NCBI GenBank assembly: GCA_950295325.1
Contig: OX485803.1
Coordinates: forward strand, 71,935,554 to 71,999,553
Reading direction: 5' to 3'
Source of the DNA: Polytrichum commune
Taxonomy: Eukaryota; Streptophyta; Polytrichopsida; Polytrichales; Polytrichaceae
Length of the DNA stretch: 64,000 bases
Shown one piece after another: positions 576-61,543 of the stretch (its first letter is position 1; each line of letters opens with the position of its first letter). The notes beneath the pieces are model-generated. The model made no database searches, had not been told where the DNA came from, and was given only the letters and a program-made list of their open reading frames with translations. The position numbers and the translations under genes are program-made.

Positions 576-914
576 ATGGCTTCTAAGTTGACATGGCTCG
601 TGATGGCCTTGCTAATCGCAGCTACGCAGGTGCACGTCGCCAACTCCAGACAACTTGGTGGTTCGTCATCTGGAAGCTCCATTTTGAGCAATCCAGAAGT
701 GCGGAAACCCAATTGTGATGAGAAGAAGGTGGTGGCGGAATTGCTGATTTCTCGGATCGCAGCGGAATCTCAAACTGAGCTGAGAGTCAAGATGCCTCTG
801 GAAGATGATTCTGGCCGTAAATTAGCAGCAACATGGCCAACGAAGAGGGTTTTACTGCCTCAAATCAATAGGCCTCCTCCGCCTCCTCCTGGTAACCCTA
901 TAAGTTCCCCGTGA
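576..914 (+). CDS. small secreted peptide precursor, paralogue 1 (112 aa)
   Basis: Intronless ORF starting at ATG 576. Residues 1-24 form a classic signal peptide: a lysine near the start, a hydrophobic core LTWLVMALLIAA, and ANS before a likely cut at S24/R25. The predicted secreted part has a Gly/Ser stretch (28-35), one cysteine (C47), a charged helix-prone middle (about 48-80), a basic WPTKR motif (87-91) and a tail with six consecutive prolines. A second copy lies at 15135-15482. Across residues 27-39 the two genes differ by six silent changes and no replacement, which indicates selection on the protein. I do not recognise the family: no CLE, CEP, IDA, RGF, PSK or cysteine-rich signature is visible. 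A single cysteine argues against a disulfide-folded defence peptide. An apoplastic signalling or wall-associated role is inference only. Confidence 0.7.
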   Translation: MASKLTWLVMALLIAATQVHVANSRQLGGSSSGSSILSNPEVRKPNCDEKKVVAELLISRIAAESQTELRVKMPLEDDSGRKLAATWPTKRVLLPQINRPPPPPPGNPISSP

Positions 915-1274
915 AGATTCACATCTATAGATCCCCTTGGAGAAGGACATTGAACTCATAGAAATTAGCAAGGTGGAGCAAGATAGGTAGATAGACACGG
1001 CACATTGTGAATTGTTGAGCAATTTCATCAGCTCTATGCACTAGTTTCAGTGCGCTGACACCCACAGGAATTGTCTGTAGAATATTACTTGGTTTTCATG
1101 GGCTGGTTGAATGTCGCAGCATTCAAAAGTTTCATGATCTTGGCCTTCATCAGCAGCCTCCATGTGTAGATTTTGCATGTCGTGATGATATTGGCGACCT
1201 GCTCATAAACCAGAATTTCGATGTTTCTACAGTATTTGTCACTGCCACAACTTGCTTGTGTTTTGGTCTTGGTA

Positions 1275-1396
1275 CACTAAATAGTGCTATTACTGTGGGT
1301 CACACTAATTTTCTAGAACTAATTTTCATGCTGAGAATTAATGTGGGCCACATTAATTACTACACTACTAATACACACTACTAGGACTATTTAGTG
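1275..1396. mobile_element. CACTAAATA-family MITE M1 (122 bp)
   Basis: Starts CACTAAATAGTGCT and ends AGGACTATTTAGTG, near-perfect terminal inverted repeats. The element is absent from the paralogous position near 15850, where the flanks join directly (GGACTTGATAGTTTCTC). That empty site confirms an insertion. Confidence 0.75.
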
Positions 1397-1647
1397 CAGT
1401 TTCTTTAATAGCTGGGTTTGAATTGCCTCTCAATGCAATCACCCGGGCACACAACGCTTTTTTTAAGAAGCCATATTTCAAGTACATATAATGCACTAAG
1501 AAGTGTTATATTTCATTCTATTTCAAGAAACTCATGTAGCCCTCAGGAAGAGGAATTTCAAAAATGCAACTTTTAGAAGAAGCACAAGCATGTATAGTAA
1601 GAGAATCATGTATTTTAGATGAAATTATAACGAGAATCTTCATACAT

Positions 1648-1768
1648 AGGGGTGAGGGCAAGCCACCAAGATTTTGGAGGTTTAGGTTCAATTCTTAAAG
1701 CCCTTTTTGTAAAGATATGAGATTTCCCATGTTATTTTCTGGTACACAAATATTTTTACCAATGCGGC
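1648..1768 (+). mobile_element. possible tRNA-derived SINE fragment
   Basis: An A-box-like GAGGGCAAGCCACCAAG (about 1655-1671) is followed by a B-box-like GGTTCAATTCT (1685-1695). The spacing is shorter than in a tRNA. It lies within the block present only in duplication copy 1. No tail or TSD is clear. Confidence 0.3.
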
Positions 1769-1783
1769 GGGGGGGGGGGGGGG
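1769..1783 (+). repeat. G15 homopolymer
   Basis: Fifteen consecutive G. A second run of eleven G lies at 1955-1965. Both are in the extra block of duplication copy 1. Confidence 0.9.
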
Positions 1784-2003
1784 CACGGGGAGTGCACATA
1801 GGAAAGGGTTCATTGAATTAGCAAAAATTCAAGTATGCAATTAAAATTTTGATTTTATTCTAATTAATAATTGAGACCCACTATTTTCATTTGAAAAAAT
1901 ACACTTTCTAACATGTAAACCCAGCCTCTAGATTAATGCCTCTAAAATAACCGCGGGGGGGGGGGACTCTGCAGAACACATACGAACACTTGAAATAATG
2001 CTT

Positions 2004-2501
2004 GAACACTTCACACACGAGACTGAGAGCCCGTGACCATTACACTTCAAGCACTCTCATTGGTGGAAAAGGTGGAGCCGGTCCAAGTTCGCTTCACACT
2101 ACGCTTGAGGGACCAACGGAGTATGTGAATGCAAGATGGATGTAAAGTCTACATGGATTCCTACATGGCATCAAATGGATCATGTTTCATGGTCACTTGG
2201 ATTATTTTCAAAACCACCTCTTGGAGGTAGGCCTAACACAAAACCGGGAGACCATGGCACTCCAAATGCTCATAACCGCTGATTTGTTTTATTTTTATCA
2301 TGTGTGAAGATCCACATGAATAGAAATTCATTGAAATAGCATTTGGTTGAGGGCCCACCCACATATGACTTCACACTACACTTAAGGATCCGTGACCACA
2401 CTACATGATTCTGGAGGTGTCTTGGGATGGCCTTTGGGCACTTTCTTTCGGGCTCTCACAATTTCATGGTCACGACTCTTGGCTCGTGTGTGAACCGGCC
2501 C
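2004..2501 (-). mobile_element. Harbinger-like MITE H1 (~490-bp family)
   Basis: Reverse-orientation copy of the elements at 31696-32193 and 61550-62039. The right end GTGTGAACCGGCCC is followed by TTA. The left end has lost its first bases (GAACACTTCACACACGAG instead of GGGCCACTTCACACACGAG). The interior is collinear with the other copies throughout, including the ATGTTTCATGGTCACTTGGA block. No coding capacity. Confidence 0.75.
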
Positions 2502-2984
2502 TTAGTGTAGTAGGTAGTTTTCCCTCCACTGGAAGAATACCCCCACTTCCAAGAGTGGATCAAAAGTCACCGCTCCCCAACTACAAAAACTAATATTTAT
2601 AAGCACTAACGTAAGCTTCCATACAATCGTATACACGAAACGTGTCGGAGAAGATATCTGTTTATATTCATGAGAAGATGAAGACAAGAGAAGACAAGAG
2701 AATCGTCAACCTTGAATTTGTTTCAAAACTGTCCTTTTTGGACATATATTAAAAAATTCAGCACATTCACTTCTGGTGCATGATCATAATTCCTCTTGGT
2801 CCACATTCAGTTCACACCTAGTGAGGGGCCCAAAGGCTTTGTAAATTGATTTTCTAAGAAATCGGACCATGGATGTTGGACCATCAAGTCGAACCATGGT
2901 AAAAGGCCATCTTTCATGGTCCGATTTCATGGTCCATGGTGTAAACCACCCCTTAGGATTGGAGGAGCTTAACAACATTTACCG
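2502..2984. other. interspersed sequence with CCATGG-rich palindromes
   Basis: No gene seen. About 2862-2945 repeats ATCGGACCATGG and its complement several times, and ends at GTAAACCACCCCTTAG, which looks like a decayed MITE terminus. No partner end was found. Confidence 0.3.
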
Positions 2985-3420
2985 TGTCCTAACATACAAG
3001 CATGTAGAGTGAGATGAAGCGGCAATGTCTCAGATCGGACCATGTTTTGTTCTTGCAATTCACAAAGAACTTTGGAGAGATCATACCACCCAAGACAACA
3101 TGTGGTAAAGTAGACAAATCCTAGTTAATGAGTTTTGTTGAATGTCCATTCAAGTTTTGTCCACGTTGTTGCATGTTTCCTAAGACCAAAAACAAAGGTA
3201 GAAAGAAGATAGGAGCACCTCAAAGTGGTGATGAGTTCATCCTTTGAACTAGCTTGCTTCTCCTCTTGAACATCGAGACTTGTATACTAGATAATGACAA
3301 GAAATGATACGGCTGCACTCACTTTGCAGCAGGCCCTAATAGGATGCTAAAACCCTAAACCTTAAACCCTACGCCTCTAGATGTAGATATGCAATCCTTG
3401 CAGTAATTGTTAATTTGTTA

Positions 3421-4331
3421 ACTATAGCATATGTACTATATAGTCAGAAATATAGAAGGTTTAATATATTTGCCTCAAGCGTTCCCCATAAAATATCAAC
3501 CGCCTATTACACTCCATGTATTAAATTATCAATGAATAGTTGGCTCCTTGTGGGTTCATTGAAACACATCTCACAAGAAATTTTTCCCCCTATATGTTAG
3601 TTAATTTCAAGGCCCCATCTCGAAAAGATGAGTGCCTTTTTCAAACAACACCCTTTATTTCCGGGGATGCATTGTACTAAACATGTACGACTATACATGG
3701 GTGCACAAAAAGGGTGTTAATTTGAACTTTTCCGTATTATGTATACATATGTTACACAAATTATAATTTGTACTCATGTACATGTATGGAGGACCTTTCA
3801 AAAATATCCAGCATTTGTACTTGTATAGTATTATCAGTGTGTCATTAGACTTTACAACATAAGTTTTTTATATTAGATAATATTAGGATGAATAATTTTC
3901 TCATTTCCTTATCTCATCGGGCATCATGCATGTATGGAAAAAGGTCATTTATTTGGAAACTTGGAGGAGGATGAGGAGTGTGATTATGATCACACATTGA
4001 TTGACGATCCTAGTGCACAAGGTAGTGAGAAGGGAGATTGTAGTGTTGATGAAGACAATTCAAACATGTACAAGGATGTGTCATAGACACTGAAGGGGTG
4101 CATTTACAAGCTAAAAACGGCCTAAATGAAAATGTCAAAGTCAACTTCGACAGGCCTTGGGTGTTTTAGTTGATGAGCATGAAAGTGTTGAAATCTCCTC
4201 TCAATTTAATGTGCAATCCATTCCCGGGGGGTGGACTCTTTTTTGGAATTCTAAATGACGTGCGTAGCCCACTAGGAAATCAAACCCCCTATACATGAGA
4301 AGTTTATAGAGAAAAACAAATGTATACGTAC
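3421..4331. other. gene-free stretch
   Basis: AT-rich. Only short open frames without recognisable domains. Nothing supported. Confidence 0.6.
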
Positions 4332-4709
4332 TCACCACCCATCCTCAAAAACAGATGACCTCAACTTATATTGAGGTCGGCGGCTTGCAAAAGTGCCCCA
4401 CCCATCCTGCAAAATGGATGATTTGTTGGTAGGGCCGGCTTGGAAGTTGAGGTTGGCTTGCAAATTGGGGTCATTTTGGGGGTCGGAGCTTTGCCCCCAA
4501 AACAAAAAAGGAGCCCCCTAAACAACAAAGGACAAACTCCATATTCCTCTCCGATTTCCAAGGTGCCAATGAGATTCATCTTGCTTTTGTTTCTTCCTTG
4601 TTTTATCACCTTATATACAAGTCATGGGTGGGGCACCCGGCTTGCAAACCGGATGACTTGAACTTATTGTGAGGATGATCCACCTTGCATTTTGTGGGAT
4701 GGGTGGTGA
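4332..4709. mobile_element. imperfect inverted-repeat element (378 bp)
   Basis: Begins TCACCACCCATCC and ends GGATGGGTGGTGA. Sub-terminal segments also pair imperfectly, with TGACYTSAACTTAT and CCCACCCAT near both ends. No clear TSD and no coding potential. Confidence 0.45.
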
Positions 4710-4902
4710 TGCTCAACATGCTAGAAATTTGTAGAGACACCTTATGAACACAAATAGATGATGCATAGAACCAAGGAGCAGAGCCTAGCTATGAATGAAG
4801 GGAAACGAGGCTAAGAACCACACCAAAGTTGCTAATGGCAGCAAAAATAGGGGAAGAAGACGATGAGGGCATTGGAAGTGAGGGAGTGACAAAGGGGACT
4901 TA

Positions 4903-5309
4903 GGGCCGTGCCACACTGGGGGCAGGCAGGTCCGTGCCCCGCCTCCCATTGGCCGAGGGCGGTGCCTACCTGCCCCACTGACGGCAAGCGGCAGGCAGGT
5001 AATACCTCCGTGGCATGCCCTGGAATATAGGGTATCTACCGGGGGGCGGAGGCTGGTACCCCCTACCCCCCCGGTGCCGGGATTCTTCGAGGCTGCCAGA
5101 TCAGCATCTGCCATCAGCTTCATCCATCAGTCTCTGCTGGAGCCTGCCTGCCTGGGGCTCCATTCGGAAGTTGTTGGGAAGGCAGTTGGCTTCACCCAGC
5201 TGCCGCTAATGTGGCAGGAGCCACGGCAGCAAGCCGAGGTGGCACGGCAAGCCTACGTCGAACCCTAGCCTGTGGCCGGGTAAGCCCTGCCCCTAGTGTG
5301 GTATGGGCC
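4903..5309. mobile_element. Harbinger-like MITE H7, GC-rich (407 bp)
   Basis: TTA TSD at 4900-4902 and 5310-5312. Termini are GGGCCGTGCCACACTGGGGG and the complement of GGCCCATACCACACTAGGGG. The interior is much richer in G/C than its surroundings, and this creates long chance open frames on both strands. The end structure matches PIF/Harbinger (Tourist) elements, which duplicate a 3-bp TWA target. Confidence 0.75.
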
Positions 5310-5312
5310 TTA

Positions 5313-8300
5313 AGTTGGACCCCACCATGAAGTCCAAGGAGCATGGGAGTGAGGTTATAGGCCAAGGAAATGTGGGAACATGACAAAGACCATCAAAATG
5401 CGGGAATGAGGCGAAGGTCCTACGAAGCTGCCACATGGGAATTGAAGACCCCCCTTGCCAAGATCGCGTTAAAGACCCCCTATCACAACTTCGTTGAAGA
5501 ACTTGCCAAGACTTTCTTGTTGAAGAACCAGCCAAGACTCATTCTTGAGAAGTCCGGGAGATTAGAATTAGTTGGGAAGAACTACTTAACTGCCGGATGT
5601 CAACGGAAAATAGTTAGATTCAAATGCTCAAATAATAGATACGTTGGGACTAGAAATAAACAAATTATACAAATTATTTCTATATTTAAAAATCTAAGGA
5701 TCAACAAATAATTAAGTTATTTTTTAGATTTCACATATTATATGAAAATGGAACTTGGAGGCTTTGTTGCACTTCATTTGGCCCCCGAACAATTTATATG
5801 AAGTGTCACCAAGGTCTCTATATAGGTGAGAAACCACTTGGGACTTGGAATTAGGACTGGACACGTAGAAATGGCACTTGAAACTTGGCACGTAGATATT
5901 CAAAAATTCCATTTAGAATCCAAAAGCTTGAGTTTGGAGTCTTGAGTCTCTCTCTTAAAACTTATTTAGGACTCAAAGGCTCCAGGTTTGAGCCTTCTTA
6001 TGATCAAGGATATATGAGAGTTGTAACATTCTTTGAGATGAATGAACAATCGATCCCTTTGCGTACATAAGATTGGTACTTGGAATTTATAAAGCTTGGA
6101 ATACTTGAAAACCAAAGATCATCATTGAAGGCCTAAGATTCTTGGAACTCATAATATCAAGCTACTTGGACATTTGCATTGCAATGGTAAACTTGGGAGT
6201 TCAATCATACTTGGAAGGATCTAAGTACGGATGCTTGAGTTGCTCCATTGAAAGGGGTTACTTTGACACTTGAGTCAAAATTTGTCAATTAAAATACTTG
6301 GGTATTCAACCCACTCATGTGAGATTAATACTTAAGTCATGCACTTGCAACATGAACCCTTAAGCCAAAATCCAAAAAGTCTATTCAATAAAGAGCCTAA
6401 AGCAAAATCCGGATCCAAAAACAAGGAGGCTAAGGTTCGAAGAGACTTACTGAAGTTGACGCATGAGTGAAATTAGACCGCGGCATCATCAAGGGCATCA
6501 TCGGAAGATGACATGTGAGATCTAGTCAAAGTTGGAGAGGATTGTAGATAGGGTTTTGGTTTGGGTTCCAATTAAGAAAACCACACAAGGAAGACTAAGT
6601 GAGTGTCATACTTTATATCTAGGTATCACTATTAGGTTGATTGATAGAACGCAAGGTTTACTGTATGAATTTAGTATGGCAAACCCAAGGAAAATAACTT
6701 CTTAGATGAGTTTTGGAACTTGTAAAATTAAGGTTTGGGTAATTAAGGTCACTCAATGCGGTACATGCAATTGCTCAATCTCTCCCTTACAACCAACACT
6801 CAACAATATCATCTCTCTTATTATGATTTTACAATGCACGGAGTCACGGCTCAACAATAGTCTTTTGAGTATCGAGTAATCCAACAATAGTCTTTCTTTG
6901 ATTTAAAGGTAATTTAGTGAGTCATGAAATACTGTAGTTCAACCCCACGGGTTGTTCAATTCCTTAATTTACCTTAAACTTAGTGAGGTGGTGGAACCAT
7001 TGTCCTTACCTGTTTTATGCGATGGAACATTCCGGTGAGTGCTCAAAGACTATAGGCCATGCCACAAGTTAGCATTCACTTACAACATATTTCAACTACA
7101 CCCCTCATGCCTTCGAATTAATTAATGAAAATTGGTAATTTTGTGTTCCATCTCTTTTCATCTCTTCTAGATTAGCAAATTAACATTTAACTTAATGCTT
7201 TAAAATTAGTTGTTATAATTTGCAAAAGTCTAGTTACAAGAACTAAGTATTGGAACCTAAGTGAACTGTAACTAAGTGATTGAGTCTAAACCCCCGAGTC
7301 CATAGCCTAGTGAGTGTCAACCATTATCTTAGTATCCAATCACCAATAACAATAACTAATAACCAATCTTAAGTATCGAGTCTCGTAGGGTAGTGTAGGC
7401 CATAGTCTTTGATAACAAGTAAGCATATAGGTCTCGAAGATTTACCTGACACCTCTCCTTATATGCTAGCTTTTGGGCTTCCTACCCAATGATATGGGAT
7501 AACTTCTCATCTCCTTCCCGGTTTCGTTCGCCTCCCCATTTTCAATGCTTCGTCCTTCTCAGATCATTGTCGTTGCTGTAGGCTATGGTCTTTCGCTAAA
7601 TTGGGCGCTTAAATTACCTTCCCATAACCATGGTCTTGCCTAACTAACAATAATTCACTTCACCACAAGGTGATAGTACTTTCATAGAGTATGCCCCTCG
7701 TTATTAAGTTGGGAAAAAACAAAATATTGCATCAAAGTTCTCTCACTAGCCTTGGATTACGTTTTCAAGCTTCACCCCGACATTCCCGCACAAACCATCA
7801 TCTTGGTAGATTATCACTCTGATAACCAGATTATCACTTCTAGAGGACTTTTTGCCCTCGTTCACAATCAAGGTTTCACACCCTCAGTCACTTTAATTTA
7901 GAACAACATACACTTTGACCCTAGGGGGAAGAAGATTCTCTCCCTTCTCGAGGAGGTAACTTGCTATCTGTCTTGTTCTTGTCTATGTGCTCGTTTATTA
8001 CTCATTTGTCTATGGCCCTAGCCAACCTCACCATGGACTTTCCCCACAAGAGTATATCATTCACTCCCAAAAGACTATGGCCGGTGACCTGAGTTAATCT
8101 TGGAATTTAATATTCATTTACTCTCTACAGAACACAAACGGATCCCACTTGAATTAATTGCCTGTACGATGAGCATGATAATGGAAAATCTTCTCTTTTC
8201 ACGAGAGGTAATTGACAATGGTCACTCCTCTCTTCATATCTTCCTCAAAAAGTCGACTTCATAATTACACCAGACTACACTTCACCCTTTCACAGGGATC

Positions 8301-8317
8301 AAGAGTTACTACCTTAA
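5313..8317. other. gene-free stretch with diffuse repeats
   Basis: No coding domain recognised. From about 5760 to 6400 the text repeats short CTTGGAACTTGA-type phrases. From about 6850 onward CTATGGTCTT-like phrases recur. It probably derives from old elements, which I cannot classify. A weak tRNA B-box-like AGGTTTGAGCC lies near 5980. Confidence 0.5.
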
Positions 8318-8864
8318 AGGCCAAGTTCCATGTGCCGGTCCCGGTCCGTTTTTTGAATGGGTGAGAAACGGGTGACATCATCCAAAAAATGGGTGATGTC
8401 ACCGATTTTATGGAGGGGTACTTCTATGTGGGGTGCCGGTTTTTTTCGATTTCCTACTTTCTAACTAAATTTGGTGAGTGATAAGACATGACACTTTATG
8501 AAGGTCACCGGCAATGAAGGTCATCTAGATTCTAAAAACATCTTAAAATACACGTTCCCTAGGAGTACTCCTCAAAAGAAGGGACTAGAAGAACAAAGTG
8601 GCCTTTAGTATCCAAGGGTGTTCATAGGTGACCGGCCAATCCGGTCACCGGAGCTTTCTAACCGGCACATGTCCTTCTTGTGACCGTTAGGACCGCCGGT
8701 CCTTTGGCACCCGTTCTTGCACAACACAAAATGTGGGACACTCATCCATGGGGGGTACCGGTCCTTGGGTGAGAGGGATGGGCACATGGCACCACCCTCT
8801 TTTCACCGGCCCACCCATTTATTTTGAAAAAAACGGACCCGGACCGGCACATGGAACTTGGCCC
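8318..8864. mobile_element. Harbinger-like MITE H8 (547 bp, long TIR)
   Basis: TAA TSD at 8315-8317 and 8865-8867. The terminal inverted repeats are about 37 bp and nearly identical: AGGCCAAGTTCCATGTGCCG on the left, GGGCCAAGTTCCATGTGCCG as the complement of the right. The interior is rich in CCGGT motifs. No coding capacity. Confidence 0.8.
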
Positions 8865-8867
8865 TAA

Positions 8868-11800
8868 ATACTGATTCTTGAACCTATCCACTCACTAGAT
8901 AATCCAAATGATAAATGATTGCCCAAAATGCTCCTATATCTTGAGTCTACCCAGGTCCTTCTCAATACACAACCAAATCGATCCCGAGTTCACTCCCTTC
9001 ACTGAGCACAATGACATCAAGACTATAATCCATACAATCATATTATTGTAAGTAAATTCCACAGTTTTATATTATGAGAGGACACTTTTACATCAGCAAG
9101 GGCTTCACACCCCGTAATTATATAAGACTATAGTCTCGCTTTTTGATGAAAGAAGGAGCTACTCTCTTCACGAGAAGTAGTTGTTAATAATCCCCTCCCT
9201 CTCTCTCTCTCTCTGCTTATGGTCATTGCCGAGTCACAAGCCTCTCTTCCTAACCGGTGTGCCTGTCCATAGCCAGATTCATAACTTCCCCTAATTAGTC
9301 ACATGACTATGGTCTTTCTTAGATGACTCTCCCACTCTGGACTATGGTCAGTGACTTGAGAAGGAACACTTCCACTTCATTTCCACTAAATAATCAATAA
9401 TTGCCTATGTCTTCATTGTTTTAGAGTTCTTACTCTACTTCTGATCCTAAACTGCCTCAATTTTTTTTTAAAGAACCTATTCTATCCAAAAAAAATTGTA
9501 TCACAAGGATCATCATCGCAAGGAGTTCCAAACAACAAAATCATGCCAAGCCGTCGAGGTGGACAAATCTCCCGCCTTGTTGCACTTGAGTAAAATCTCA
9601 AACTTCAAACTTCAAGACTCAAGTGAATGTCCCATCAACGATATTAGATTCTAGATTTGTTAAGTTAAAGAATATACTTAAATTTTATATTCGATACTTA
9701 TGAGAAATCTTGAAGTTGTTGACCAAACAATTTTGGAGACTAACAAGTAAAATTCTTGTCTTGAAAACTTATAAGGTTGCGAAGAAAGTAAAACTAATTA
9801 CTTACAATTCATAACTCATGCTTAGAATAACATGCAAGATTCCTATAGACCATGAGGACACTCAACCGTGCCATTAGGATTTAGAGGAACATAACCTTGT
9901 AAGACTTGGGCACATGACTCCCTCAGGATTTCAAGGACATATCTAAGGATTCTTCTTGTACCACATTGAAATTTTATAAATTAAGTTATAGGATATATAT
10001 AGATATATGACCTTGGAATAATTAAAAGTAATTCAAGGTATACCTAGGAAATACTATCACCTAAACAAACACAAGGGAATTAAGGCATTAGATGGCTAAC
10101 CTAATCCTCTAGAGTTATAGGACTTGTGTACACCGGTCAGTAGCATGTCACACCATCTAAGGTTGAGGAAACCTTGTGACCAAAATGACAACCTCAACAA
10201 AAATGCACTCAAGTGTTTATAATAAGCTTTTCAATTTAATGTGATAGATGCCTCCAATACATATACAAAACCTAAATTGTGGATAAATTTGTTATTTTAT
10301 TATTAATAAAATCCACTTTCACTTCCCAATTTGAAAGTCATGAAACTATTTTCCATCCATAGCATGTAACTCCACAATTGCATCAAAACAACAAAGACAA
10401 GAATATGATAAGTTAGCCTTAACCGGAGAGCAAACTGAAGGGAGCCCATGAGCGCTCTAAGAGCTTCTAGTTTGTGAAAACCTAGAACCCAAATGCAAAC
10501 CTTATCAAGATTGGATAGGGTAGGCATTGAGGACTATTACCATCTGAAAACAATGTATGAAAATGTGAAATGGACGAAACTAAAACATTTCTTGTCAATT
10601 TTTTCTCTAAATCCTAGGGCCCCCTTTCCTACATCTACCTTAACTTCTAAATTCTTAATAACATTTTTAATTGTACACACTACAAAACAAATAAAAATAA
10701 AAGTAAAAAGTAAAAACCTCTCCCTTATGTATACCATGTATAGTATTGCCTCAAATAACACCCCTTCTTATACTCATGTTAGTTTGTACATGACAGCTAG
10801 GTGATGCGTGACAAAAATCTCTTGTTGACAGGGTAAGTCCGATTGTTTACCTAGGGGTCAATGACATAATCAAGCTCCTCGTCAACAGTTTGGTCAATTA
10901 CAAAATAATAGTCGATATAGCATTCAACTAGAGAAAAAAAAAATGCAAAAAACATGGAATTCTAGATCTTCTTGGATGCAAGATCTAAAGGTACTAAAAA
11001 TTGGAATTTTTTTGTTTTTGTTTTTTCTAAACAATTGACTAGCTAGTTGATTGCTTTAGGTTGATTGCTCCAAATTAATTACTATAGTCAACCAAGAGCA
11101 ATCAATTAGTTTGTTGACTACTACTAGCAGTCGACTTCTAGAAGAACAAAAATATCTTTAAATAACAATAACAATAAATAAACAACTAAACAACTAAAAC
11201 AAATTCAAAAAAAACATTTCGACCATTAGATCTTACATTTAATAAGATCTAATGGTGCAAAAATATTTTTATAGTATTTCTAAAGATGTCCATTTCTAGT
11301 AGCATTTGAAAAAAAATTAAACAAAAATTACTCCAATTAAAAAAAAAAACCCACATCAGCGAGCGTCACGTCCCAACATGATGCGACGTGACGGGTGGGG
11401 CTACATCACATCCAATTGCACATCCTTGGTTGGGAGGGTTTGTAAGATGTGTAGAAAGTTTGGAAATCATTGGGTGGAGTATAGGGATCCAATTGACTTG
11501 ATGGACCATTTATCAAAAATGAAGATTGACTTGTGTGGGTATCACAAAGGAACCAACAAGAAGTGGACATACGATCTTACCAATCATTTGATGGTAGAAT
11601 TAGAAACAATAATTGCATTAGTTTTTATGACATATATTGCGAACTTGGATGCTTATGAGATACATCCCAGTGATGGAAAACTCTTAAATAACTTTATTGA
11701 TGAATGCTAGGGTTTTGTATTATACATATGATAGGGGTTGATTTCTAATTCCAAGCTATATTTGTAACTTATGTTAAGGACTATATATGAATGCAATTTT

Positions 11801-12013
11801 TTTGAAGTGTATATATTTTCCATTATATTTTAATCATTGAAATTGTATGGGTATTGCTTAATATTACCAACCAACCAATAGATAGATAGATAGATAAGGA
11901 ATTTTAGAGTGTGTTGTGAACGCAAAAGATTCTTTGATTTTAATGAGGAGCATCAAAAGTAAAATTAAAACCAAATGAATGAAGAGGCAAGGGAGTATTC
12001 ATTTAATTGAGAT
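8868..12013. other. gene-free stretch
   Basis: Continues the diffuse repeats of 7.4-8.3 kb up to about 9.4 kb (short CT tract near 9196), then anonymous AT-rich DNA. A 110-codon open frame at 11378-11710 has no recognisable domain. Nothing else supported. Confidence 0.5.
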
Positions 12014-12021
12014 CATGATAG

Positions 12022-13221
12022 CAGGCCATAAATTTGACACCCTAGCCAAATTTCCAGGGGACACCCTGCTCCAATTTTTGGGTGTCCTCATAAATTTCTC
12101 TTAAATTTTTTTTTTGTCAAAATAGGTACAATTTTGAAAAATATATAATATCATTTCAAAATTTCAATTAAAAATCAAAAAAATCACTACATATCATAAC
12201 TTGCAATGCAAATCAAACCTACAAGCGGCGGCCTTTCATAGCACACCACTTTACTCATACTTGTTCAAAGTCAATGGCCTCTATGGGGATTTTTGCCATT
12301 GCAACTCTCATTTGTGCTTCCAAAGTCTCTAATACCAAACTACACCGTAAAGTAGATTTAATATGATTTTGAGTAGAAAATCCTCTCTCACAAGAAGTTG
12401 TACTAGCAGGAATTACAAGAACAGCTTGCCACAACTTTGTCATATGAGGATATCTTCCAACATAGTCCAAATTGGAAGAATAAACCATCCAAGCTTGGTG
12501 CATTTTAAGACCACCACATGAAATATGAAGTGTATCCAAAAAACCTCAAAGCTCTGATTTTAAACCACGCTCATCAAAAAGATTCCCTCCATTAGTGCAT
12601 AGGTGGTCAATGAAACTCTGAAGCCATAAACGAGCATTTCGATGAAGAAGTGTCAAGTCTGTTGAAAAACAGACAGGGCTAAATAGCTTAGTTGCATTGA
12701 AGAGCTTCAAATCAGGAAATCGTTGCTGCAATGATTCTATCACCTTAACCACATAGGCCTGTGCAATCACCTTGCACCCATGGAGGGTACCATCACCACC
12801 AAACTCAATTGCATGAGGCAATGGTGCATAATGCAATATATGTGAATGCACCACTCCTATAGAGTCTTGAAAATGGATCTCACCACCTCTAGAAATGTCC
12901 AAAAATTGTGCCACAAATTTGGTATCCGCACCAAACTCCTCATATTCATACACCAAGAATTTTCTTGACAAAGACCGTGTCGTAATCTCTATGGCATCTC
13001 CAATCTCAGTTAGATCCAAGTTTTCCTTTTGGAAAATCTTGTTTAATGTACGCTGATAGGCCCTACAAGTACAGGGGACACCCTGAATTTTTTTTGGGTG
13101 TAAAAAGGACACCCTTGTAGGATTTTTGGGTGTCCTCGGGGACACCCTGTTTGAGATTTGGGTGTCCTAGGACACTCTAGGAAGCAAAATACACCCCCCA
13201 GGGTGTCAATTTTATGCCCTG
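12022..13221 (-). mobile_element. hAT-family DNA transposon, internally deleted (1,200 bp)
   Basis: Perfect 8-bp TSD CATGATAG at 12014-12021 and 13222-13229. Terminal inverted repeats are CAGGCCATAAATTTGACACC and, on the complement of the right end, CAGGGCATAAAATTGACACC. 8-bp duplications and CAGG-type ends are diagnostic of hAT elements. Inside, on the minus strand, is the C-terminal part of a hAT transposase. The catalytic N-terminal half and the BED zinc finger are missing, so the element is non-autonomous. Confidence 0.92.
12255..13145 (-). pseudogene. hAT transposase C-terminal remnant, one in-frame stop
   Basis: One reading frame runs through the region on the minus strand, interrupted by a single TGA at 12546-12548, between LFDERGLKSEL and GFLDTLHIS. 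The upstream part includes VVKVIESLQQRFPDLKLFNA. The downstream part contains the hAT dimerisation (Dimer_Tnp_hAT) signature ASTTSCERGFSTQNHIKSTL, where the conserved S-ERxFS-xxNxIKxxxR pattern is intact. The extreme N-terminal codons (about 13045-13145) read through CACCC-rich subterminal repeats rather than transposase. The catalytic core is absent. A recent single stop in an otherwise open frame suggests young decay. Confidence 0.85.
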
Positions 13222-13229
13222 CATGATAG

Positions 13230-13839
13230 TATATTTGAATACTACACTAGAGGTTCTTCATTACTTGGTTTTAGTCACATACCATAGTGTGTTTAAGTAA
13301 GAGTAATGTAAGTCAAACAACATTCAAGTAGGCAAAAAAGTTGTAATACCTAGTTTAAGTAGAAATCATGTTCAAATGCTACCAAAGGAGATCCCCTTGG
13401 CATCCCTTGGAGTTGCCATACAATACCTATTAATCATCTCACTAAGTGTTGTCAACATGTCCCTTCCCTTCACAACATGTTTAATTACGAGTGTTGTAAG
13501 TAGGACAACATCTAACTAGGCACAAGATGTATTACATGGGACAAGCAATGTCACATTCCTAATTGGAGTTGCCCAAGACATCGCTTGGGGAGGTGGATAT
13601 TGCGGTGGTGTCCAAGTCCTCCAAGACGGCAGGGCAAAGGTTATTCAAAAGGCAGTGTCCCTTGGCGATGACAATGGTGACAACCCCACCATGGTCAAGT
13701 TGAAGAAAACCGTGTTGGGTAGACGAAGGAACTCAGTTATAATTGACAAGTGATGGCAATCTTCATACATTTCATTTCAATTTTAATAATGAATAATAAA
13801 AGAGAGAATCAAAAGTAAGTAGGTAGCAACACTTTGATT
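13230..13839. other. gene-free stretch
   Basis: Anonymous sequence. About 13590-13710 is slightly GC-richer and open in one frame, but it shows no recognisable domain. Confidence 0.4.
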
Positions 13840-14655
13840 CGGACGAACTAAACCCATACACTCGTTCCTTGTTGGATGCCTAAACCCTTAAGGTAGAGGG
13901 TGCTTAAACCAACACTTTAAGCTATTGCACATACATATGGCTATATGGTTGATATAAAAAAAAAAAAAAAATCATATTAGCCTTTGGGCTAAACATAGGT
14001 ACCAAGAAAGAAAATTTATTTTTAGTCTCAATTGAATATTTGATGAATATTCAAAGTCAAAACTACTAGCTTCCTTAAACCAATCCATAGGCCCCATGTA
14101 TGGTAACCTCACATATGATGAGGACCCCCACCTTCATTGCCTAGAACCAACACAACATAGTTGGGTACTAGACCCAAACTACATGAAAGCCCAAGTAGTA
14201 ATGGTACGCAAAGCCACACGGCTACCTTCACGATCCCACCCAGTTCGCTTGCAAAACCATCACCTTGCATCCTGGGAACCGACCCCCTTGCATCCCGGGA
14301 AATGACCCTTTCGTGCTTTGTGGGCCTACCTCCTTGGCGTTGTGAATAGAATGACTAGAATAGGCATTGACAAGCCACCCTAATCCCACTTTGAAGCAAC
14401 CCGAGATAGAATGGAGCATGTTACCTAGCCTACATGGAGGTAGTGGAGGCTGCTATGAGGTGGCACCACTAATGACACCTAAAACCGTCACTTCGTGGGC
14501 CTAGACACTCCTACACCGCCAGGTACGGTTCAAGGTTGTAGAGTGTTGGCAATTGGTAGGCGTTTATAGGTGTTGGTTTTGGATGGGGTGTTGGTTTTAG
14601 CACCCTCTACCTTACCTCCAAGGAACCCGTGTACGTGTTTAGTTCGCCCCAGCCC
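13840..14655. mobile_element. long-TIR element (~816 bp), possibly Mutator-like
   Basis: About 55-60-bp terminal inverted repeats: 13840-13904 (GACGAACTAAACCCATACAC ... GTAGAGGGTGCT) and 14599-14655 (AGCACCCTCTACC ... GTTCGCCCCAGCCC). A short relative at 38453-38618 has the same ends joined back to back. Long TIRs suit Mutator-like elements. A 9-bp TSD is not convincing, so the class is uncertain. No transposase. Confidence 0.65.
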
Positions 14656-14970
14656 AATACTTCTTGCCATATGAAACTGATTACGGTGACTAGATGGAGA
14701 AACTTATCAAAGCCATTTTCAGTGAATGAGCTGGAAAGCTAAGTGAGACGAGTTCATTACAATACAGGAAAACTCGGGGCATGTGTCGCCAGTATGGAAA
14801 TGATACACCAAAGTCAAAAGTCACCAGCAAGGAAGTCCACTTTCCGACCCCAAAAAGTCTCCACTGCAAACCATCCGTATCCGACTTGTTTCTCAAGGTC
14901 TCATCGATATTCCAGCTCGTGACGGACTTGCAGACTAGCTTTGCATCCTGATGTGCAACCTGCAGTGACA

Positions 14971-14977
14971 TATAATT
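14971..14977 (+). promoter_or_regulatory. putative TATA element of peptide gene 2
   Basis: TATAATT at the position equivalent to 409-415, with matching spacing to the start codon. The sequence between it and the ATG is well conserved between the two copies. Confidence 0.35.
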
Positions 14978-15134
14978 ATCTTACTTTGACACACATCGCA
15001 CACAAGGTTCAAGACGCACATGCTTGGTATGATCAGTGCATTTCAGGGAGATGCCGGGTACGACCCAGTTGATGTAATATTCTTGGAAGAAATCAATCCA
15101 CCTGGACTAATCTTCCTGATTCAGGCCAGGACTG

Positions 15135-15482
15135 ATGGCTTCTAAGTTGACATGGCTCGTGATGGCCTTGCTAATTGCAGCTATGCAGGTGCACATTGCC
15201 AACTCCAGACAACTTGGCGGCTCATCATCTGGGAGCTCGATTTTAAGCAATCCAGAAGTGCGGAAACCCAATTGTGATGAGAAGAAGGTGGCGGGGGAAT
15301 TGCTAATTTCTCGGACCACAGCGGAATCTCAAACTGAGCTGAGAGTCATGATGCCTCTGGAAGATGATTCTGGCCCTAAATTAGCAGCAACATGGCCAAC
15401 GAAGAGGATTTTAGAGGCTCAAATCAATATGTATCCTCCGCCTCCTCATTCTAACACTCCGCATAACCCTTCTATGCCATGA
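15135..15482 (+). CDS. small secreted peptide precursor, paralogue 2 (115 aa)
   Basis: Intronless tandem paralogue of the gene at 576-914, same strand, about 14.5 kb downstream. It has the same signal peptide (T17M and V21I changes only), the same block SNPEVRKPNCDEKK (residues 38-51, identical even at DNA level), and the same LAATWPTKR motif. Replacements sit mostly at 53-54, 61-62, 72 and 81. After residue 92 the tail is rewritten: a PPPP run followed by His/Asn/Ser-rich residues, ending NPSMP, three residues longer than paralogue 1. The single cysteine C47 is kept. The open frame, the intact signal peptide and silent changes in the core suggest that both copies are functional. Family unknown to me. 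Confidence 0.7.
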   Translation: MASKLTWLVMALLIAAMQVHIANSRQLGGSSSGSSILSNPEVRKPNCDEKKVAGELLISRTTAESQTELRVMMPLEDDSGPKLAATWPTKRILEAQINMYPPPPHSNTPHNPSMP

Positions 15483-16500
15483 ATATTGACATGTTATGTA
15501 GATCCTCTTGGAGAAGGATATTGGACTCATAGACATTAGTTAGGTGAAGCAAGATAGTCGGGTAGCTAGGGCTCACTGTCAGTTGTTGAGCAAATTCATC
15601 AGTTGTATGCATTAGTTTCAGTGCTCTGACACCTACAAGAATTGTCTGTAGAATTTTGGGTTTTCACAATCTGGTTGAATGTGGCAGAGTTCACAAGTTT
15701 AATAATCTTGACCTTCATTAGCAGCCTTTGTGTGTTGAATATGAGACTGCATGTCGTGGTGATATTGGCTACCTGCTCATAAACCAGAAATTCAGTGTTT
15801 CTACATCATTTGTCACTGGCACATTTTGCTTGTGTTTCGGACTTGATAGTTTCTCTGATAGCCGGATTTGAATTGCCGCTCAATCAATTTGAGGACCAAC
15901 TAAATTGACAGAGGAGAGAGGTGGTGTCGGAACCCAACTTAAGAAATCATTATGAGTAAATCTTAGCTTTGCCGATAGAGAAAGCATCAGTCAAACTTTG
16001 GGTTGGAAGAGATTGATAGCATTTATCGTGTCCTTACAGCCATACCTGTAGAGTAAGACCAATTGGTCATGTCTTGGACTGGAATGTGTGATGTCGATGT
16101 CTGTGTAACCCACAAGGAACTTTGGGCAAATTGTACCACCTAGGACAACATGGGGTAAAGCAGACCAAACCAAGTGAATGGGGTTTAATGAATTTTCCCT
16201 TCATTTACAAGAGGCCCATTCACCAAGTTTTGTCCACGTTACCACATGTTTCCCTATCATCAAACTCCACAGTAGAAGATAGGAGCAACTCGAAGCCGTG
16301 ATGAGTTCAATCTAACCAGCTTTTCCTCTTGAACATGGAGACTTGTTCAGCTAATTACAAGAGATGGCACAAGTGCACGCACTTTGAAGCAGTTTGAGTG
16401 CTCTGCTAAAATCCTGAACCCTAAACCCTAACCCCAACCCTCTGGGCCGTGTGATGTCTGTGCAGCCCAATCAATGAATGCCACTAATGTTAATCTACCC

Positions 16501-20325: not shown

Positions 20326-22893
20326 AGGCGGGGGTAACATCAACCTTCTTTTTCATAGTAATGAGGTATATGTGCAACCCCATTGTGAGCACTTCTCACT
20401 CCATAAACAAGGGAAGTGGAGTGGTGGGCAGTAACACATGAGCAATGAGTGGGTTACATGTGATCGATGATGTCAAATATAATAAAAGCACATGGGTTTA
20501 GGTTTCATTCTCTACATTTGGGAATCAATTAATTGAATTTGTTCAATTGTATGTCACAAGTGAAGGGGGCCTATTACCATAGGAATTTGGAACACACATT
20601 CAATCAAGACTTGATTTTTATTGTAATAATTCAAAACGCTCAAATGCCGTGTATTGACATGTTGAAACAGTAGTGTGAACACAACCCTAGCAACACTATT
20701 TGTGCTCAATAACACTAGCAAGTTTAAGAAGTTGCATGACCTCGTCGTAGATATACGTTGGAGCATTAATTAACTTGTCATCTTCAAGCGCCAATGTCCC
20801 CTCCCTCGAGAAATTGGGACCCATTTTCGCCAACAAATGTTGGTATTGTAGGCCAATCCAACTACACACTTCTTTTTGTTGCCACTTACACACTAGTTTA
20901 TGGTTCTCATACTTGTCATTTCCACACCATGTTGTCTCTGCGTCAAATCCCCAAACTAGTTTCCCAAAGAAGGGTGCAAAATCTAAGGTAAATGTGGAGG
21001 CCATACATTTGTATTTTAATCTCACATCGGCAAGCACGCAACTCATGAATAGGAAAATGCCATGGAGAGGTGGTAGAGAGGAGGATTCCATTTGACGTGA
21101 ATCTTGATTGAGGCTTCAACAACTATTGTATATGTTGTCTTTAATGCTTATGCATCAACATATTGATATTTCTCATACTTTCAAGGTGTTTCAAGCTACA
21201 CAGATTTCATTGTGTTATTATGCATGGTTTGTGCAAATTTATTGACCTCTCAGCATTTCATTTTTTAGATCACTTTTTCATGTTTGCAAACGTAGTGGCC
21301 ATCATCTAGTAGCATACAAGGAAGACTTTGCATTGTTTGATGCACTCCATCATCATGACATGATACAATACCCACTCCTAGTGCAAGTGGATTTGTGTCA
21401 CCAAATGCAACTGTTAATTTTAACGAAGAGCATATATATTAAGAAGTTGCAAGGAAAATTTCATTGAATAGATAAGTTAACAAGATATCCATATCTTTTG
21501 CCAACTTGACATCCGACGCCTAGGAAGTGTGCACTTGAAGTATAAGCATTCTAAAAAAAATTGCAAGGAAAATGAAAATATATGAGTTTTCCTACGAGTT
21601 CTATGGTTTTGCCTCCATATGCGGAGAGTGTCACCCATAACATGGCGGGGTCACCGATGTTGATCCATGGCCGCATGTCTCAACAAATTGTTGGTCAACC
21701 ATTTTTAGATGACAAGGCGGATGAGTGTCATTATCTTGATGATTAGGCTAAATCAGTTTACGGATATATAGATAGTTCACAATACCATACATTATATGTT
21801 TGGTTGGATTGGATTCTATTGAGTTAGAACTTTGATTGCATGAAGCTGAGATTCTTCATGCCTACAACTATGTTTCATAATTCCACTAATAAATCAAAAA
21901 GTTTGAGCCCATTGCTTGGAGTTTTGTGATAATGTTTGAACCCGTTTAAATTATTGGTGTCCTTTTAAATCAACGCAATCAGTGGATATTGATTTGTGGA
22001 AGAAATTTCCCTTTATACTTCCATCTATGTCCACAAGTTTAAGTGTTTTTCGTTTGCAATGCCTTCATCAATTCATTACTCAAACTTATGTGAATTCTAG
22101 AAATATAGTTTAAAGCATGCTCAATACTTGGAACGTGCTTGCATTTTATTTGTAGAATTGAATGTTAGAATCTAACAACAATATAGGAAACTACTTCCAA
22201 ACCCTCATGCAAAGCTTGCGGTTATTGATCTTAGAAGTAGAGTAAGGCATTCACTAGGTTAATTGAAATTTGTTTGAACTTCCCACTCATATTGTTGTTA
22301 AGGAAACATTATTATTTATGTCAACAATTACAGTTGTTGTATACATGATATAGAGTATACCATGATTCTAGAATACTAGTGAGTGTATTTCCAAATATTT
22401 TGCTCACCACTCACATGATAACACTTCCCAAAGCAAGCCGTAGAGGAGAAAACAAGTATAATGAACATGTTCAACCCGCCGACATCCTAACAAGAGCACT
22501 TGAACATGTTGAATTTGAGACACACAGAGCAGCATCAGGGTAAAATGCCTTGCCACACTCCGAGTAGAAAACTCACATCCTGATCACTACTTAAATCCTC
22601 AAAGTATACTAGAATCTTATGATCTATACAGCCCTGTTGATTCCGCCATAAATCCCTCAGCATCATGCAATGAGCGAAAGCTCTTGAATTGCGTCACTTT
22701 GAATTGACGAACTTGCACTTGACAACACTCCCAATTGGTATATATTCTTGGGCACAACATAGTATTCTCTTGCAATTCCATCTCCAAAACTTGTTCAAAG
22801 AATCGGATAAGATAATTTAATCTTCCCCAACTTGTGGAAGAGCACGACTCCAAAACCATTCTCCCAAAGCCTTGTCCATCAATCGGTAGCACC
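20326..22893. other. gene-free stretch
   Basis: Only shadow-type open frames, including a 131-codon minus frame at 20696-21091 with no recognisable domain. No gene supported. Confidence 0.45.
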
Positions 22894-22901
22894 TTGAAAG
22901 G

Positions 22902-23505
22902 CAAGGGCGGAGTCAGGGGGAGGCTAGGGGGGGCTCAATCCCCCCTGACATCATCAGTAGAAAACAATGCCAAAACGACTATAGAATTTTTATTTTTATT
23001 TTGCGATTGTAATGTTAAAATTTTGTGGGGCATGTAATACACCGTTGGAAAGGTGTTTTCAAGAGCTTTCCAAGGTGTATTACAAGCCCCCAAAGTCCTA
23101 AAATTTTAGTTGGTAAATTCAAAAAAATCTGCAGTTGTTTAGCAACTGCAAAGCAAGCTGATCAAAAGAACCACAATGGGAAAATGATTGCGATTTTTTT
23201 TCGCAATGTTTTCTACGAGTGCATTGAAGGAAAGTCGTGCATCTACTTATTATTGATGATGCCTATTGGCAATGATTGGATGGTCGATCTGATGATCATC
23301 TCTATCGAAAAGACAATTGTCAAAGCTTTGGATATTAACGACATTATCAAAAAAAAGTATGGGGATGTCAGTTCGATGAGTCCAAATCACTCAATAAGTA
23401 ATCAAATTCGACCACCTATTGAAATTTGAAAATAAAATATACATTGAATATTTCCATATTATGAGGTCAGTCCCCCTTAGGTTCAAAATCCTGGCTCCAC
23501 CCCTG
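22902..23505. mobile_element. hAT-like non-autonomous element (604 bp)
   Basis: Left end CAAGGGCGGAGTCAGGGGG. The complement of the right end is CAGGGGTGGAGCCAGGATTT. The flanking 8-mers are TTGAAAGG (22894-22901) and TTGATAAG (23506-23513), 6/8 identical, as expected for an aged hAT TSD. The plus frame around 23260-23350 (WMVDLMIISIEKTIVKALD then INDIIKK) resembles the degraded C-terminus of a hAT transposase. Confidence 0.65.
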
Positions 23506-31106: not shown

Positions 31107-31695
31107 TCGGCCTCTTCATGTTGCGGTTGATAAAGTTGAAAAATATATAGAGATGGGGTTAGAAGAAATTTTATTGGGTGCCAAGTTGTAGTAGGTGTGC
31201 AATGGTCAAAATTTGCAAGGAATGACTTCAAACGTAGATGATTTCTTCCATGTTTATAACATTACTAGGTAGTTGTGAGTTCTGAGATAAGAATCATGGG
31301 ATGTTGGGAGCTCAATTTGAATATGAGACTCCTTGTGCAATGTTTCATATCCCATGGTTATATTTCCAAGGCCCACGTAACAAATGCACACTGGTTAATA
31401 ATATTATGTCTATATGACAAATCTACTCATTTTGTTCATTGTTGATGGATGTGACTCAAGATCATCCTCCAACTACTGAGCCTATGCCTCGGAATCTTAA
31501 GAAAATACTTATGGCCACAAAGAATAACTTATTCCTCCAATGATAAAATTCGACATGTGAAAATAGGAGATTGTTGGTTGTCATAGATTTACATCGGATC
31601 GAACAAAGGGAGGATACTTTGCATGGTGAAAGGGTGCTCATCATGTATGAGCACGGCCCTTGACTTGAAGTGAGGAGAAAGTTCATTGTATGTAA

Positions 31696-32193
31696 GGGCC
31701 ACTTCACACACAATCCAAGAGCCGTGACCATGAGATTGTGAGAGCCCAAAAGAGAGTGTCCAAAGGCCGTCCCAAGACACCTCCAAAGGTCATGTAGCGT
31801 GGTCACAGACCCTCGAGTGTAGTGTGAAATCATATGTGACTGACCCTCAACCAAATGCTATTTCAATGAATTTCTATTTATTCAGGTCCTCACACATGAT
31901 AAAATAGAATCAATCAATGGTTATGAGTGTTCAGAGTGCCATGGTCTCCCGATATTGTGCTAGGACTACCTCCAAGAGCTAGTTTTTGGAAATAGTCCAA
32001 GTGACCATGAAACATGATCCATTCGATGCCATGTAGGAATCCATGTAGGCTTTACCTCCATCTAGCATTCACATACTCCGTTGGTCCCTCAAGCGTAGTC
32101 TAAGCAAACTTGGACCAGCTCCGCCTTTTCCACCAATGAGAGTGCTTGAAGTGTATTGGTCACGGGCTCTCAGTCTCGTGTGTGAAGTGGCCC
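31696..32193 (+). mobile_element. Harbinger-like MITE H2 (498 bp)
   Basis: Intact TAA TSD at 31693-31695 and 32194-32196. Termini are GGGCCACTTCACACAC and GTGTGTGAAGTGGCCC. Full-length member of the ~490-bp family, with no coding capacity. Confidence 0.88.
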
Positions 32194-32196
32194 TAA

Positions 32197-51689: not shown

Positions 51690-52751
51690 ATGGCTAAGGG
51701 AACAGGAAACGCTCCATCAAGCAATATGGAGCTATACAGGAAGATATTCTTCAGCTACCTATATGTTATGGTATGGATCTTCTTAAGCTTCTCAGTGATC
51801 ATCTACAACAAATATATTCTCGACCGGAACCTGTACAACTGGCCCTTTCCCATCACGCTGACTATGATTCACATGGCTTTCTGTTCCGTGCTTGCTTTCC
51901 TCATCATTCGAGTGTTCAAGTGGGTGGAGCCGGTTAACATGACCAGGGAACTTTACATGGGCTCAGTTGTGCCTATCGGAGCCCTTTATTCCCTGAGTCT
52001 GTGGCTCTCAAACTCAGCATACATCTACCTCTCTGTGTCTTTCATACAGATGTTGAAGGCCCTGATGCCAGTTGCAGTGTACTCAATCGGAGTCTCTTTG
52101 AAAAGAGAGAACTTCAAGTCACAAACAATGGCTAACATGATTGGTATCTCAGTTGGTGTCGGGATTGCTGCATATGGGGAAGCCAAATTTAATGGGTGGG
52201 GAGTGATGCTACAGCTTGGAGCTGTTGCATTTGAAGCAACCAGGCTGGTTCTCATTCAAATCCTCCTCACTTCCAAGGGAATCTCCTTGAACCCAATCAC
52301 TTCACTTTACTATATTGCCCCTTGTTGCTTTGTATGCCTTACGGTGCCATGGATAATTGTGGAGTACCCCAGGTTGATGGCTATGTCCTCATTCAACTTT
52401 GACTACCTTGTATTTGGAACGAACTCAGCATGCGCATTCCTACTCAACTTGGCGGTGTTCCTCCTTGTGGGCAAGACCTCAGCTCTCACAATGAACGTTG
52501 CAGGAGTGGTGAAGGATTGGTTGCTCATTGCGTTCTCATGGTCAGTGATTGCGGATAGGGTTACTACCATCAACTTGGTTGGCTACGGAATTGCTTTCCT
52601 TGGAGTTTGTTTTTACAACCACGCTAAACTGCAGGCAATGAAGAACAAAGACTCACAGAAGAAGATTGCACAAGCGGATGAAGAGGGTGAACGTTTACTG
52701 GAGCAAAAGACTGAGACGGAAACAGTGAGGAAATCATCTCCCCAGGTGTAG
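51690..52751 (+). CDS. probable sugar-phosphate/phosphate translocator (DMT/TPT family, 353 aa)
   Basis: Uninterrupted ORF. The ATG at 51690 has a strong plant context (GGCCATGGC). An upstream in-frame GTG at 51669 is not a credible eukaryotic start. The protein closely follows the plant KT/KD subgroup of nucleotide-sugar/triose-phosphate transporters (Arabidopsis At2g25520, At4g32390, At5g11230, At5g25400 type), with hydrophobic helices throughout. Key stretches are [10 protein letters not shown] (36-45), [20 protein letters not shown] (94-113), [13 protein letters not shown] (123-135), [12 protein letters not shown] (182-193), [13 protein letters not shown] (201-213) and [20 protein letters not shown] (261-280), the last with the conserved KD motif. 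The C-terminus is a soluble acidic tail with EEGERLLEQ (331-339). There is no chloroplast transit peptide, so a Golgi/ER or other endomembrane antiporter is likely. The exact substrate cannot be read from sequence. Confidence 0.95.
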
Positions 52752-61260: not shown

Positions 61261-61543
61261 ACTGCCCATTGCATGAATTGTTTAGTCTGTAACAAATTAT
61301 ATCAGTGACGTACTACAGTACCAATGATGGAATTAGTAATATTCTATGGTTATATATACATTCATTGTTGGATTCAACGAAAGGTCCAACTCTCACCAAG
61401 GTTTTGTGTAACAGTTAAAGCATAGTTTTCTGATAGGTGCAATGCTACTTTGTTGGTGCTTTTGGGTTCAGATGTATTTTTGTATCTATATGCTTTCTTA
61501 AGCTTGCATACTAATAAAGTTGTGTGTTAAAGCTAATAAGTAA

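Follow-up and report, generated by a model that had tools for sequence, protein, structure and literature searches.

A 64,000-nucleotide stretch of the Polytrichum commune genome (assembly GCA_950295325.1, contig OX485803.1, forward-strand positions 71,935,554 to 71,999,553; the window hereafter) carries a tandemly duplicated pair of orphan open reading frames (ORFs). Judging from the way the two copies differ, the pair is probably a genuine protein-coding gene whose product is small and secreted. The copy 1 ORF (576-914) is 112 residues long and has no match in Pfam or NCBIfam. The copy 2 ORF (15135-15482), recovered by a search of the species' own assembly and by alignment with copy 1, is 115 residues long. 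Both frames are intact. They lie in the same orientation within one duplicated unit, 14,559 bp apart, and all features of this unit are given on the plus strand. Each predicted protein would begin with a signal peptide (residues 1-24; 576-647 in copy 1 and 15135-15206 in copy 2). A part that appears constrained follows (residues 25-91; 648-848 and 15207-15407), ending in copy 1 with Lys90-Arg91. Beyond it lies a C-terminal tail (849-911 and 15408-15479).

The argument starts from a comparison of the two copies at the codon level. Codons 1-91 contain 9 silent and 8 replacement differences, corresponding to a ratio of replacement to silent substitution rates (dN/dS, or omega) of 0.34 (p = 0.03, codon maximum likelihood, ML). 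For codons 25-91, omega is 0.31. The original prediction had drawn attention to a run of six silent differences with no replacement, next to a stretch identical in DNA. The codon alignment displays both: silent differences at codons 28, 29, 30, 33, 35 and 37, and DNA identity over codons 38-52. Among 23 differing codons such a run has a shuffle P of 0.0045, for a run that was picked after the fact. Replacement sites of codons 1-91 differ at 8 of about 207 positions, against 163 of 876 sites in the flanks (Fisher p = 9e-9), roughly a fifth of the rate seen in the flanks. At silent sites (9 of about 66 differing) the rate is close to that of the flanks (p = 0.41), and the difference between silent and replacement sites within these codons has p = 0.008. 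The stretches 379-467 and 468-575 were left out of the flank count because they may correspond to promoter and 5' untranslated region (UTR). With the near flanks alone as yardstick (79/481), the replacement deficit persists (p = 1.2e-6). Neutral simulations with 17 substitutions gave so few replacements with P = 0.027, or 0.034 given no stop. Because codons 1-91 had been chosen after inspection, all windows of at least 60 codons were scanned over 2000 neutral simulations, and the corrected P was 0.012. These comparisons support purifying selection on codons 1-91 in both copies, at modest significance.

A second line of evidence comes from the distribution of indels over the duplicated unit, which is larger than the gene. 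Collinear matches pair -84 to -18 (19-85 bp ahead of the first base of the window) with 14700-14766, which marks the upstream edge of the copy 2 unit. Further matches pair 242-1274 with 14806-15848, 1398-1439 with 15848-15888, and 2952-3371 with 15996-16430. Within the assembly (408 Mb in 64 contigs), the stretch 2930-3420 matched itself and its partner only. It therefore looks single-copy, belongs to the same duplication and makes a fair neutral yardstick, of which the far flank 2952-3371, about 2 kb downstream, forms part. Substitution divergence is 18.8% at 242-378, 15.6% in the 3' flank common to both copies (915-1274 and 15483-15848) and 21.3% in the far flank, with 7, 6 and 13 gap events, respectively. 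The flanks thus fit the earlier description of decaying duplicated DNA, the near-upstream part (9.3%) being better kept. Inside the ORF, divergence is 6.2% over codons 1-91, 20.8% over codons 92-107 and 9.2% over the coding sequence (CDS) as a whole. Neither codons 1-91 nor codons 92-107 contain a gap event; three, with a net length of 9 bp, fall in the last codons (897-914). The absence of indels from codons 1-107, alongside 27 substitutions, has p = 0.014 under the near-flank indel rate. The frame stays open in both copies, and there is no frameshift between them over these codons. Across the gap-free block 468-898, no run open in both copies exceeds the 112 codons found in the ORF frame. 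What points to coding is the pattern of differences by codon in codons 1-91, together with the missing indels in codons 1-107. A minus-strand ORF at 434-769 was considered separately and set aside: it matched no Pfam family, and the longest frame that both copies keep open on this strand, the runner-up within the gap-free block, has 73 codons.

Several insertions were apparently gained by copy 1. Repeats at 22-236 and 2007-2508, absent from copy 2, match elsewhere in the window. The second belongs to a dispersed repeat of about 500 bp present at 2007-2508, 31693-32196 and 61543-62042, with 88-90% identity across the three sites. A short insertion with inverted ends at 1275-1397, also absent from copy 2, looks like a miniature transposable element. 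It has at least 40 assembly matches including the query itself (the best 40 of 530 candidates), on all seven large contigs, most of which cover no more than roughly the first 90 bases of the 133-base query.

Coding potential was also evaluated by codon usage, with a score whose training set comprised 15 long open frames (6,530 codons) of 22 PPR and UDPGT loci of the assembly, the remaining 7 loci being redundant or too short. Codons 1-91 score 0.20 bits per codon in copy 1 and 0.11 in copy 2, and the whole ORFs 0.15 and 0.06; pieces of known genes average 0.14 (58 pieces). Among 204 noncoding open frames with 60 codons or more, 2 reach the codon 1-91 score of copy 1 and 9 that of copy 2. The original prediction of two intact, signal-peptide-like ORFs of 112 and 115 residues agrees with the open frames and with a crude, purpose-made rule for signal peptides, which both proteins satisfy with a possible cleavage after Ala-Asn-Ser24. 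Applied to ORFs of 80-160 residues, the same rule picks out 23 of 648 random ones and 2 of the 31 others in the window. An AlphaFold2 model computed from the two sequences (mean predicted local distance difference test score, pLDDT, 54.9; predicted template modelling score, pTM, 0.20) contains helices at residues 4-26, overlapping the predicted signal peptide, and at 47-64, the rest being of low confidence. This low-confidence model is compatible with a disordered propeptide and is no proof of one.

Several observations weigh against a protein-coding interpretation. Over codons 1-107, dN/dS is 0.62 (NG86) or 0.78-0.79 (codon ML), not different from 1. The protein-level constraint originally proposed for the ORFs therefore stands, with modest significance, for codons 1-91 and does not extend to the whole frame. 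The dN/dS comparison put forward at that stage as a check on function gives a whole-ORF value indistinguishable from 1. The boundary at codon 91 was itself set after inspection of the data. In addition, 55% of the neutral simulations leave codons 1-91 without stops, so that the open frame alone proves little. One wrong frame of copy 1, interrupted by 6 stops, looks nearly as coding-like as the ORF (0.192 versus 0.201), so the codon-usage test is largely compositional. The AlphaFold2 model is too low in confidence to lend support. Lastly, the conserved upstream stretch, a putative 5' UTR and proximal promoter (379-575; 14941-15134 in copy 2), diverges less than the other flanks, which counts against a purely coding explanation. 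Both of its parts, 379-467 with two gap events and 468-575 with none, differ by 9.3%. Since this stretch is as well kept as the whole CDS, the low divergence of the ORF is not special by itself. As the 108 bp directly upstream (468-575) are also gap-free, nucleotide-level constraint or gene conversion may contribute.

The upstream conservation, the whole-ORF omega and the share of simulations without stops would also fit an ORF that arose by chance in noncoding DNA, the conserved core being a promoter, a 5' region, a noncoding RNA or a conversion tract centred on approximately 379-848, in which the frame stayed open by luck. Divergence also rises outwards from the 5' half of the ORF in both directions, which fits this explanation as well. 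However, conversion should depress silent and replacement differences to the same degree, whereas codons 1-91 show 3.5-fold fewer differences per replacement site than per silent site. The lack of indels in codons 1-107 and the signal-peptide-like N-terminus of both copies argue in the same direction, and we consider a chance ORF rather unlikely.

The tail that follows Lys90-Arg91 behaves differently from the rest of the ORF. It is proline-rich in copy 1, and that of copy 2 is unlike it. Codons 92-107 carry 10 replacement and no silent changes. Under neutrality with stops disallowed, such an all-replacement pattern has P = 0.012 or 0.025, depending on the starting copy, and a codon ML test of omega = 1 yields p = 0.006, the omega estimate lying at the boundary. 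These values concern a region that was picked after inspection and is in part a CCT-type repeat. Several of the ten changes are adjacent; they may reflect fewer mutational events and may not be independent. Because the density of change (10/48) is like that of the flanks (20.8% versus 18.6%), lost constraint is the simpler reading. Codon usage in the copy 1 tail (21 codons) resembles that of noncoding DNA, at -0.08 bits per codon. The best reading of these data is that the precursor region is conserved and that the tail is unconstrained or fast-changing.

The flank-like divergence and the noncoding-like codon usage of the tail would also suit a fragment, a first exon or a decaying remnant of a longer gene, in which the frame beyond codon 91 would be intronic or noncoding. 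This appears improbable. The alignment contains no GT common to both copies between 786 and 973 and hence no common splice donor near codon 91, so that a shared intron after this codon was ruled out. In addition, the 3' flank contains scattered indels, and its three short blocks of 84-102 bp that both copies keep open in one frame show 8-9 residue changes per 27-33 residues. Neither ORF has a Pfam match. Still less credence is given to an analogy with venom-peptide precursors, in which a conserved signal peptide and propeptide would extend to the dibasic site and a mature tail would diversify by replacement only. If this were the case, a single conserved carrier would deliver two distinct products, ligands or defence peptides, one per copy. 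It is this contrast, a kept precursor beside a replaced tail, that deserves testing.

Searches for relatives agree with the original description of the genes as unrecognised and devoid of a known hormone motif. Neither protein matched any Pfam or NCBIfam family at E-values up to 10, in a search whose filters drop most weak matches. A single weak PDB match (8pjv_A, molecule SAKe6DR, E = 0.006, residues 14-57), obtained with a two-sequence profile, was judged to be due to chance. Searches of the assembly with the protein, with DNA 379-1274 and with residues 24-91 returned the two known copies only (2 of 6, 2 of 2 and 2 of 2 candidates), although weak matches may be missed. At the level of this assembly, the gene family that had been proposed is not shown beyond this pair. 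A back-translated pattern allowing up to 3 mismatches hit 25 assembly sites, exactly only at the two known ones; the reversed control hit 10. In these searches contig C8 corresponds to the plastid genome (146,561 bp), and the non-plastid matches are on C1-C7, the window lying on C1. The plastid PsaB protein is closest to the PDB chains 8htu, 6l35 and 7ksq (1705-1701 bits), with 9lut in fourth place (1667 bits); 6l35 and 7ksq are photosystem I of Physcomitrium patens, as 8htu probably is. RbcL is closest to 9chz, and a 319-residue open frame next to rbcL, probably accD, is short, as in non-seed plants. These matches agree with a non-seed plant, most likely a moss, although the plastid genome exceeds the size usual for mosses. 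Using two short peptide patterns only, 57 stretches in bacterial and archaeal contigs and 24 in viral contigs were retrieved, none of which was confirmed. A full-text literature search with three peptide fragments gave no match. Literature searches covering peptides of mosses, peptide signals of nonflowering plants, secreted orphan proteins and hypervariable precursors likewise brought up no description of the gene. Regarding promoters, a TATA-type pattern, scanned in the copy 2 locus only, has 6 matches against 2.4 expected, and none of them lies just upstream of the ORF. A bacterial promoter and terminator scan of 300-600, ill-suited to plant DNA, found nothing.

Plant peptide hormones were considered through a motif scan with regular expressions, some of them shortened. 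None of the motifs of CLE, RALF, PSK, PSY, CIF, RGF, IDA, CEP, PIP, PEP and SCOOP occurs in either protein. This covers the 12-13 residue CLE motif, the C-terminal motifs of IDA, CEP, PIP and PEP in shortened form, the Asp-Tyr sulfation site of PSY, CIF and RGF/CLEL, and the PSK sequence YIYTQ. For RALF and other cysteine-rich peptides, neither the YISY motif nor four or more cysteines were found. The only cysteine is Cys47, which speaks against cysteine-rich families. By eye, the tails resemble pieces of CLE, IDA or RGF; this was dropped, the copies disagreeing there and the motif scan being empty. Precursors of CLE, IDA, CEP and PIP consist of a signal peptide, a disordered middle, a dibasic site and a proline-rich end. 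The layout of the gene pair is similar, but it lacks the family motifs and its C-terminus is its least conserved part. With PSK, PSY, CIF and RGF/CLEL the pair shares size and signal peptide; it differs in having no Asp-Tyr, and copy 1 contains no tyrosine at all, which makes tyrosine-sulfated families inapplicable to this copy. A highly diverged member of a known hormone family (CLE, IDA or hydroxyproline-rich systemin type), whose active peptide would lie in the proline-rich C-terminus downstream of Lys-Arg, would account for the similar layout but is very improbable, given that the motifs scanned are all absent (systemin-type motifs lying outside the scan), that copy 1 lacks tyrosine, and that the C-terminal domain, which carries the 12-13 residue motif and is the conserved part of CLE precursors as described in part of PMC11756074, is the least conserved here.

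Among lineage-restricted or newly found small proteins that land plants make from short ORFs, the PSEP peptides of P. patens are described, in part of PMC11756074, on a mass-spectrometry basis. MpSGF10B of M. polymorpha, which has a signal peptide and leucine-rich repeat (LRR) motifs, came from a screen for genes conserved with Arabidopsis and is backed by expression, secretion and mutants (part of PMC9901580). As far as these portions of the two sources go, the gene pair resembles both in its short ORF, and MpSGF10B in its N-terminal signal peptide; it differs in being known from sequence alone, in having no known domain and in that the searches gave no relative beyond the duplication itself.

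The favoured reading, a duplicated gene for a small secreted protein, suggests the following scheme. The 112-115-residue protein would be translated into the endoplasmic reticulum, residues 1-24 mediating entry before being removed. What would then be released, from residue 25 onward, is a protein of some 90 residues, largely disordered. This product may be a propeptide, since Lys50-Lys51 and Lys90-Arg91 could serve as processing sites. It might act in the apoplast as a ligand precursor or as a defence protein. From transcription and translation to secretion, cleavage, disorder (on a weak model) and an apoplastic role, these are steps that we infer, and "peptide" in the sense of a processed hormone would be a presumptive term. 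Confidence in any named role is much lower than in the coding gene.

Other features of the window are as follows. A fragment of a hAT transposase dimerisation domain is found at 12255-12503 on the minus strand (PF05699, E = 1.9e-8). An open frame at 22617-22934 (minus strand), which matches Pfam Cauli_VI (Ribonuclease H1 N-terminal domain, E = 3.9e-9), is probably a piece of a mobile element. A 353-residue open frame at 51690-52751 (plus strand) belongs to the triose-phosphate transporter family (PF03151, E = 5.2e-22). Two minus-strand open frames within 55590-58454 match one end each of Branch (PF02485) and are likely exons of one glycosyltransferase gene. In the upstream neighbouring locus (L005, plus strand, 3115-3414 of that locus), an exon-like stretch matches the diacylglycerol acyltransferase family (PF03982, E = 1.1e-6).

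Since plants commonly have small secreted proteins restricted to particular lineages, an orphan pair is no surprise by itself. We regard the present pair as a credible orphan of modest significance. If it is real, the duplicate's own flanks would have served as a neutral clock, separating a gene from the decaying duplicated DNA around it, and a secreted protein of no recognised family would join the thinly charted secretome of non-seed plants.

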